The position numbers and the translations under genes are program-made. The notes under the pieces were generated by a model, which was not told the DNA's origin, ran no database searches, and saw only the letters and a list, made by a program, of their open reading frames with translations. A stretch of 64,000 nucleotides of DNA from Longimicrobiales bacterium (GTDB lineage: Bacteria > Gemmatimonadota > Gemmatimonadetes > Longimicrobiales > Gaopeijiaceae): positions 1,839,340 through 1,903,339 of the forward strand of contig OX638356.1 of NCBI GenBank assembly GCA_951813395.1, in the 5' to 3' direction. This document shows positions 24,991-28,945 of this stretch, piece after piece. The first letter of the stretch is position 1, and every line of letters starts with the position of its first letter.

Positions 24991-26757
<1,767 letters not shown>

Positions 26758-27006
26758 CGGCGAGGGGTCGCGCCCGGGTCGCGGCCTGTGGTCGCGGACC
26801 GTCCCCGCCGTCCGAAGTCAGGTGCCGCAATACGTCTTTCATCGCCGCGGCGGCGAGCGCCTCCAACTCTTCCGGACTCCGGTTCTGCACGGGGTGGTTC
26901 ACCCAGACGATGGCGGGATCGAAGCCGAGAGTGCGCGCCTGATGCTCCGCTGCGTCGCGGAAGGCGGTCGTGGCCACGAGGAGACCGGGGACACCGCGAT
27001 CGTCGA

Positions 27007-27046
27007 GCTTCCTGATGTCATGCAGACCGCATGATACGCAGGAGCC
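27007..27046 (-). promoter_or_regulatory. Bacterial SECIS hairpin downstream of the UGA
   Basis: Reading the reverse strand from the base after TGA: lower stem TCCTG (27043-27039) with CAGGA (27014-27010), a small internal loop, a perfect six-pair upper stem TCATGC (27034-27029) with GCATGA (27023-27018), and the apical loop GGTCT (27028-27024). Exactly 18 nt separate TGA from the loop. From memory the E. coli fdhF SECIS has the same GGUCU loop at the same distance, which SelB recognises. The hairpin lies inside the coding sequence, so it is constrained by both functions. Confidence 0.85.
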
Positions 27047-27330
27047 TCAGTCGGCGAGCGCCACGACCACCGCGTCCGAACCCGCGGCGATCGCGTCCAG
27101 AGTCCGCGCGGCGGCGGGCTTGGCGTTGGTCGGCTTGGCGAAGCGCCCGGTGGCGATGTCCAGCGCGCGGAACCGGGTTTCGAGGTGGTCCAGGAATTCG
27201 TCCGAGCGGGTCTTGCCGATGTCGAACAGCGCCACGGTCCTGCCGGCCAGCGAGGCAGGGGGAGGGCGGCGGGGACGGGTGGCCGGGACGGATTCGGACG
27301 TGGGATCGTGCAACCGGGTTTCGGGGTTGT

Positions 27331-28821
27331 TCATTCGCTGATCTCTCGCGTGATGGGGTGGGACTCCTCGTAGTCGCGTCCTCCCGGCCACCCCGACAGG
27401 ATGGCCGACATCAATCCGGCCGGGCCACCCGCGCGAACCACGAGGAGGCCGTCCGGATGAAACTTGGGTATTCGCTCGCTGCGGTGTGAGAACGGCATCC
27501 CTTCCGCGACGCCGCCCGCCCCGGCCACAACGTCCGCGCCGGGCCGCAGGAGGGCCTGTGGAGGCCGGCGGTGATCCGGTTTCGACACCACCCGGCTCCG
27601 CCGTAGATGGCGTAGTGCTCGGGGGACAGCACCAGAAGCCCCTGCACCCACTTGCACAGCTTCGGATGCCCCACGGCGGTGAGCGCCATGGCGAGCGAGC
27701 GCGTCAGTTCGGCCGGTGTGCGCGCCTTCTGGTCCCAGACGCCCTGGACACCGTCCCCGGCGAACACGGTAACCGCGCTCGACCCGGGAGCGGCGCCCCG
27801 GGCTACCGCAAGGGGGACCCAACCGTCATCCGATTCGTCCTCGGCGAAGCAGAAGGTGTATTTGCCGGGCGTCCCCAGCGTGGCGCGATCGATCTCGCCC
27901 GGCCGCCCGCCACCCAGGTTTCGGACCACGAGGTTGAGCGCGCGTCCGATCGTCGCGTTGGCGCGGTTCCCCTGGCCGAGCGCGTTCATGCCCGAGTTCA
28001 TCCCCAGGCGCTTCGTGATCGGGCCATTGACGATGATGACGGGACTCGAGAAACAGGTGCTGCAGGTAACCCCGTGCAGCGTGAACGCGGGGTCCAGCGC
28101 GGCCTCGAGCGCGGTCAGCACGACCGGGAGGTATTCGGGTCTGCAACCGGCCATGACCGCGTTGATCGCTACCTTCTCCACGGTGCACGGAGCCAGGTCC
28201 GGCGGGATGCGGCCGACGATCTCGTGCGGGTTCCGCCTTGTTCCCGTGAGCATGCGCAGGATTCTCTCGGGGGTCGGCGGGACGACGGGCAGCCCGTCGG
28301 TCCAGCCGCGGTCGAAGCACGCCTCGACCGGGTCGACCGCGTCACCGACCGCGACTTCGCGTGCACGGATCCGGTGTCGCCGTAGCGCGCTCGGAGCGCT
28401 TCCGCGACGCCCGGTTCCACGGAGCGGGAGCCGCAGCCGGGCCGATGAGCGGGAAGTCCGTCGCCGAGCCGGTCAAGGCCGGTCAGGGCGCGCCAATCGG
28501 CCGTGCTCCATCCCTCGGTTCGTCCCGTCTCTGCGTCGCGCTCCAGCCGTATCAGCGTGGGGACCGTCGCGATGTCCATGCGGAACGAATGTTCCAGGTC
28601 GCGGTCGTCCACCGTGGCCAGGGAGGTGGGGAGAAAGGCGTCGTCGTCCTGCCAGTACACATCGAGCGGACGGCCCGCCGCCGCGATCTGCGCGAGCACC
28701 GGTGCGACGAGATGACAGGTCTCGCAGTCGTCCTTGACGACCGCGACGAAGCGGGGCGGGGGTGGCGTGGCAGTCCTCGCGGTTGTTGGATGAATCCGGC
28801 GATTTCACCCGAAGATGCCAT
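27331..28821 (-). pseudogene. Thioredoxin-fold protein coupled to UGSC selenoprotein, interrupted by about three single-base deletions
   Basis: Reconstructed length about 497 residues. A start at 28821 (MASSGEIAGFIQQP) leads, after a frame change near 28753-28762 in G runs, into a thioredoxin fold with VKDDCETCHLVAPVL and the cis-Pro MDIATVPTLIRLE. A second shift near 28355-28365 leads into a large domain (RGWTDGLPVVPPTPERILRM; CTVEKVAINAVMAGCRPEYL; MNSGMNALGQGNRANATIG) that also holds a CSTC motif near 28041-28078. A third shift near 27553 leads into the C-terminus (LLRPGADVVAGAGGVAEGMP; HPITREISE). All three shifts go the same way, as if one base were missing at each. The TGA overlaps the selenoprotein ATG (ATGA). 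I recognise the domain order as a recurring companion of UGSC proteins, but cannot name the large domain. It is either a decaying gene or locally wrong sequence. Confidence 0.75.
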
Positions 28822-28945
28822 GCCGGCCCTTCCGGCACAACGACGCCCCCCGGAACGGGCGGAGGCCGGAGCGGGCGCCCACACGCACCCACGCCGACCT
28901 CCTCTCCGCCGGCCGCCGAAGCGACGCGGCGGTGGTTCCCGCCGA

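Follow-up and report, generated by a model that had tools for sequence, protein, structure and literature searches.

Within the 64,000-nucleotide window (the whole stretch of DNA that was analysed), a UGSC-family selenoprotein gene of 208 amino acids occupies positions 26708–27334 of the minus strand. Its translation matched the PF24696 profile at E = 2.1e-34 (119.6 bits against a cut-off of 25), which identifies the UGSC domain, and NF041046 at E = 2.7e-33 (115.1 bits, slightly under the cut-off of 125). Selenocysteine (Sec) is encoded at codon 96 by an in-frame TGA (27047–27049, minus strand) followed by Gly-Ser-Cys, giving the motif AD-U-GSC; this codon is TGA in 164/164 distinct Sec-type loci, and Cys takes its place in 6 distant homologues. 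Gene callers that take UGA for a stop would terminate the gene at codon 95; Sec coding was confirmed in this genome, and its closest relatives from public collections carry the label Gemmatimonadota. UGSC selenoproteins were already known (PF24696, NF041046; GOS ‘UGSC-containing protein’, PMC2398784), and the window gene is a further member of that family. It shares with the known genes the Sec motif and a TGA with a hairpin directly after it, and nothing essential differs; it scores below the NF041046 cut-off and has a short C-terminal tail. The predicted fold was flavodoxin-like/Rossmann-like with high confidence (pLDDT 94.7). Fold-search matches were without exception generic and were not used to assign a function; a search of solved structures by sequence returned nothing convincing. 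In the model, Sec lies at the N-terminal end of a helix that follows a strand, plausibly an active-site position. A redox role would fit this position and the thioredoxin-like neighbour found in many relatives.

The ATG of the UGSC gene (27334) overlaps the TGA stop of the upstream gene (ATGA). This neighbour (27331–28855, minus strand) was delineated by tblastn with an intact relative of 518 amino acids (L072) and comprises a thioredoxin-like domain and an unnamed conserved domain, spread over three frames with breaks near 28370 and 27556. Of the 122 hit loci, 118 have it in a single frame; the split may stem from a sequencing error or from genuine decay. The unnamed domain carries TDGLPVVPPT. 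Searches of the neighbour family (L072:1427-2983 and homologues) against Pfam and NCBIfam gave no family over cut-off, and structure matches were convincing only in the thioredoxin part. Some relatives appear to be without the thioredoxin part (about 360 vs about 485 amino acids). At its 3′ end the UGSC gene overlaps a convergent transporter gene (24991–26757, plus strand) by 50 nt (26708–26757); in L072, the UGSC and transporter genes do not overlap within the matched domain.

The genome to which the window belongs encodes tRNA-Sec (anticodon TCA), SelA, SelB and SelD, and is thus Sec-decoding. Compared with E. coli SelB, its SelB diverges over the C-terminal portion; the final winged-helix region can still be aligned and retains an RK pair. 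SelD carries its own in-frame TGA (L068, G000:C1:73954-74880); a hairpin with a GUG loop lies ~33 nt after that TGA, and a second, stronger hairpin, without an early G in its loop, lies nearer to it. UGSC matches were found in 49 of the 395 genomes of a phylum sample, each match containing a single TGA and otherwise no stop codon. SelB scored above cut-off in 47 of the 48 genomes with an above-cut-off UGSC match, compared to 282/395 overall (hypergeometric 6e-7, relatedness ignored), the sole exception being G275, with no SelB match above cut-off. A search of viral contigs for UGSC relatives found none.

Directly after the TGA, the 41 nt at 27046–27006 (minus strand) fold as a single hairpin of -17.3 kcal/mol. 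Its apical part (27018–27034, minus strand; TCATGC-GGTCT-GCATGA) consists of TCATGC (27034–27029) joined by 6 Watson-Crick pairs to GCATGA (27023–27018) around the loop GGTCT (27024–27028), which begins after a TGA-to-loop distance of 18 nt. Around it, within 27006–27046, positions 27046–27039 and 27037–27036 pair with 27016–27011 and 27009–27006 to form a lower stem. The sequence-only reading had described a perfect 6-bp apical stem, a lower stem, a GGTCT loop and an 18-nt spacing; coordinates and fold bear out all of these, with 10 pairs in the lower stem. The general bacterial SECIS (bSECIS) model (PMC13188914) asks for an upper stem of 4–16 bp, 16–37 nt from UGA to loop, an MFE of at most -7.5 and a genome with Sec-decoding machinery, as is present here, and does not require a bulge. 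The published criteria of bSECISearch (PMC13188914) were applied by hand, and the hairpin conformed to them fully (5-nt loop GGUCU, G within the first two loop positions, 6-bp upper stem, 18 nt, -17.3 kcal/mol); the lack of a predicted SECIS score, which the sequence-only reading had named as evidence against its proposal, was therefore not what was found. An Rfam scan gave no match at the hairpin, even at E up to 10, which says nothing either way, since Rfam may hold no model for such bacterial SECIS elements.

The hairpin was compared with the E. coli K-12 formate dehydrogenase elements (fdhF, NC_000913.3, Sec at codon 140; fdnG; fdoG). E. coli numbering counts UGA as 1–3, so G23 and U24 correspond to +20 and +21 after the TGA; in the window these are loop bases 27027 and 27026. 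Both bases are kept at +20/+21 in fdhF, fdnG, fdoG and 164/164 UGSC genes. The sequence-only reading had stated that fdhF has the same loop and spacing. As to position this is right: fdhF too has 18 nt between its UGA and GGTCT, and the two hairpins are of similar size. The pairing differs: fdhF has its own 6-nt AGGUCU loop, or an A-U-closed GGUC, and a bulged U17, in contrast to the continuous 6-bp apical stem of the UGSC element. In fdnG and fdoG, AGUCU stands at +19 to +23, the same offset and exactly as in most of the pseudomonadotan UGSC genes collected, but these two genes have U at +14 and differ in stem and lower stem. In E. coli, SelB binding reportedly depends on the bulged U17 (PMC8659212, PMC8704476). 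In the window gene and in 164/164 loci, the corresponding position (+14) is C opposite an invariant G, so that the fdhF-type bulge is absent. A covariance model of the element (R1) found no match in E. coli fdhF, fdnG or fdoG, and the likeness is therefore confined to the core motif. In the window's own genome, R1 matched strongly only at the UGSC hairpin (61.5 bits); the second-ranking match (L161, 23.1 bits) spans just 22 nt. On sequence grounds the UGSC element belongs to the bacterial SECIS class and is fdhF-like in loop and distance, though not strictly fdhF-type.

Relatives were drawn from the phylum sample, from public genomes (including Betaproteobacteria and Alphaproteobacteria) and from divergent alphaproteobacterial copies, giving 164 distinct Sec-type loci; a longer alphaproteobacterial sub-family with a differently built hairpin was left out. 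The seventh codon after the TGA, which contains the loop G and U, was NGT in 164/164 loci (AGT 105, GGT 44, TGT 15). Among the first 103 loci, Ser at this position was encoded by AGT in 59/59 cases and Gly by GGT in 44/44; outside this position, the same genes use AGT for 2.8% of Ser and GGT for 9.3% of Gly. Third-position changes were counted on a tree built without the hairpin region. Codons +6 and +7 had 0 silent changes each, +8 had 1, +9 had 4 and +10 had 2, whereas Gly+1 had 28, Leu-3 had 31, Gly+18 had 25 and nearby Asp codons had 14–15. The 6 Cys-type homologues are distant (five plasmid-borne, one alphaproteobacterial) and carry ACA, TCC, TGC, ACG, AGC and ACC as loop codons, i.e. NGT in 0/6 (Fisher 3e-11, descent ignored); this contrast is partly confounded by amino-acid change, as the loop position is Thr in 3/6 and Ser in just 2/6 of them.

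Pairing was scored over 79 distinct sequences and, at single pairs, over the 164 loci. In the apical stem 98.9% of cells were paired, and sliding the partners by 1–3 columns lowered this to 0.4–47%; the lower stem was not conserved (67.5% of cells paired). Compensatory changes across UGSC homologues, the check that had been proposed from the sequence alone, were found at two pairs of the apical stem. Pair +15/+27 (27032/27020, minus strand) joins two silent third positions and was G-C in 90 loci, G-U in 46, A-U in 25 and unpaired in 3; A opposite C was seen 0 times vs 13.7 expected under independence. Pair +18/+24 (27029/27023, minus strand) was C-G in 149 loci, G-C in 15 and broken in 0, the G-C form going with a Cys-to-Trp change and mostly a Leu-to-Phe or Ile change in the protein. 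After correction for descent, few double changes were independent: 6 pairs fell on branches with good support, for a sign-test p of about 0.125, so the covariation is supportive but not decisive alone.

Several further UGSC loci were recorded. On the IncP conjugative plasmid p2-T1 of Acidovorax sp. T1 (L156, NZ_CP021650.1), a UGSC gene whose SECIS is intact (R1, 47 bits) is annotated as a ‘hypothetical protein’ ending at a TGA. Reyranella soli (L168-L171, G395) has five UGSC copies, all with TGA, and another genome of its class has eight. The longer alphaproteobacterial sub-family (L197, L229, L231, L233-L238) has open frames of about 580–660 codons, the motif G[CG]UG[SA]CTPAV[LM]R and a hairpin CCCGC-CGUGNU-GCGGG in which G-U lies one base earlier. 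UGSC genes from MAGs titled ‘Bordetella parapertussis’ (L105, L119, L128, L139, L140, L142, L146) group with those of betaproteobacterial MAGs, and these names look doubtful.

The hairpin is almost certainly the bacterial SECIS of the UGSC gene, through which the UGA would be recoded as Sec by way of SelB. Alternatively, the conserved peptide GSCxSC[GSC]LHD, written in codons prone to inverted repeats, could give rise to the hairpin as a by-product; the UGA would then be decoded as Sec in some other way, and the likeness to fdhF would be a coincidence. The window sequence by itself leaves room for such an origin. When the peptide was recoded synonymously 20,000 times at the codon frequencies of the window, the MFE of the hairpin stood only at the 11th percentile; a stem of at least 6 bp arose at this place in 21% of recodings, GGTCT at its place in 14%, and both together in 2.6%. 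The hairpin is thus not exceptional against synonymous recodings, and the single sequence proves little. For the same reason the fdhF resemblance alone is weak evidence, since the SCGLHD peptide is conserved and lends itself to such a hairpin, and the proposal from the sequence alone that the match suggests selection for SelB binding does not stand on the match itself. It gains its footing from a SECIS in a Sec-decoding genome with an NGU loop codon that is fixed in the Sec-type genes and absent from the Cys-type homologues, SelB binding as such being inferred. The peptide would not account for an NGT codon throughout the 164 loci against a background use of 2.8 to 9.3%, for near-zero silent change at codons +6 to +8, for the paired silent changes at +15/+27, for a change from C-G to G-C accompanied by Cys-to-Trp, or for the absence of NGT from Cys-type homologues. 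The silent-site tests strongly disfavour the by-product origin, which we consider very improbable. The comparison, as far as sequences can tell, shows the loop and apical stem to be kept by selection on the RNA itself.

Less probable still, to the point of being negligible, is that translation simply stops at the TGA, or that the TGA arose by sequencing error, the frame downstream being an ORF of its own or belonging to a decayed gene. The neighbour's split over three frames does allow for local sequence errors or decay. Against this, the TGA occupies the identical codon in every Sec-type relative, across several phyla, the protein similarity continues across it to the end of the domain, and the genome has complete Sec machinery. 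For the UGSC family, the conservation of the codon across relatives refutes an ordinary stop. A further possibility refines the SECIS assignment and is compatible with it: a functional sub-type read unlike fdhF, in which the cognate SelB would recognise the loop GU on a continuous stem with no bulged U17. This we hold to be somewhat probable, given the C opposite an invariant G at +14 throughout the 164 loci and a general bacterial SECIS model that asks for no bulge. The C-terminal divergence between the genome's own SelB and that of E. coli points the same way, though its last winged-helix region aligns.

As a SECIS, the stem-loop in the mRNA directly after the UGA would present the loop G and U (G23, U24) at a fixed distance. 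SelB, with Sec-tRNA(Sec) and GTP, would bind the hairpin through the winged-helix domains at its C-terminus and bring Sec to the UGA, yielding a 208-aa protein instead of a 95-aa fragment. These molecular steps are established for E. coli and most likely apply to the UGSC gene. The element is, in sum, a genuine but ordinary Sec-insertion signal.

For the family, the need for G-U at +20/+21 would confine the residue at Sec+7 to amino acids encoded by NGU (Ser, Gly and Cys in the 164 genes); Cys-type homologues, which are without a SECIS, have ACN, TCC, TGC or AGC codons at the equivalent position. Whether the loop in this way limits the seventh residue after Sec and, taken with its position in the E. 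coli formate dehydrogenases, reflects a fixed G-U distance in a large class of bacterial SECIS elements working without a bulged U17 appears to us evenly balanced; the sequences suggest it. The UGSC genes form a well-sampled natural data set of the SECIS bases under selection, which include the loop G-U and the apical stem and exclude the bulged U17 and the lower stem. This data set would serve SECIS prediction and studies of recognition differences among SelB proteins.
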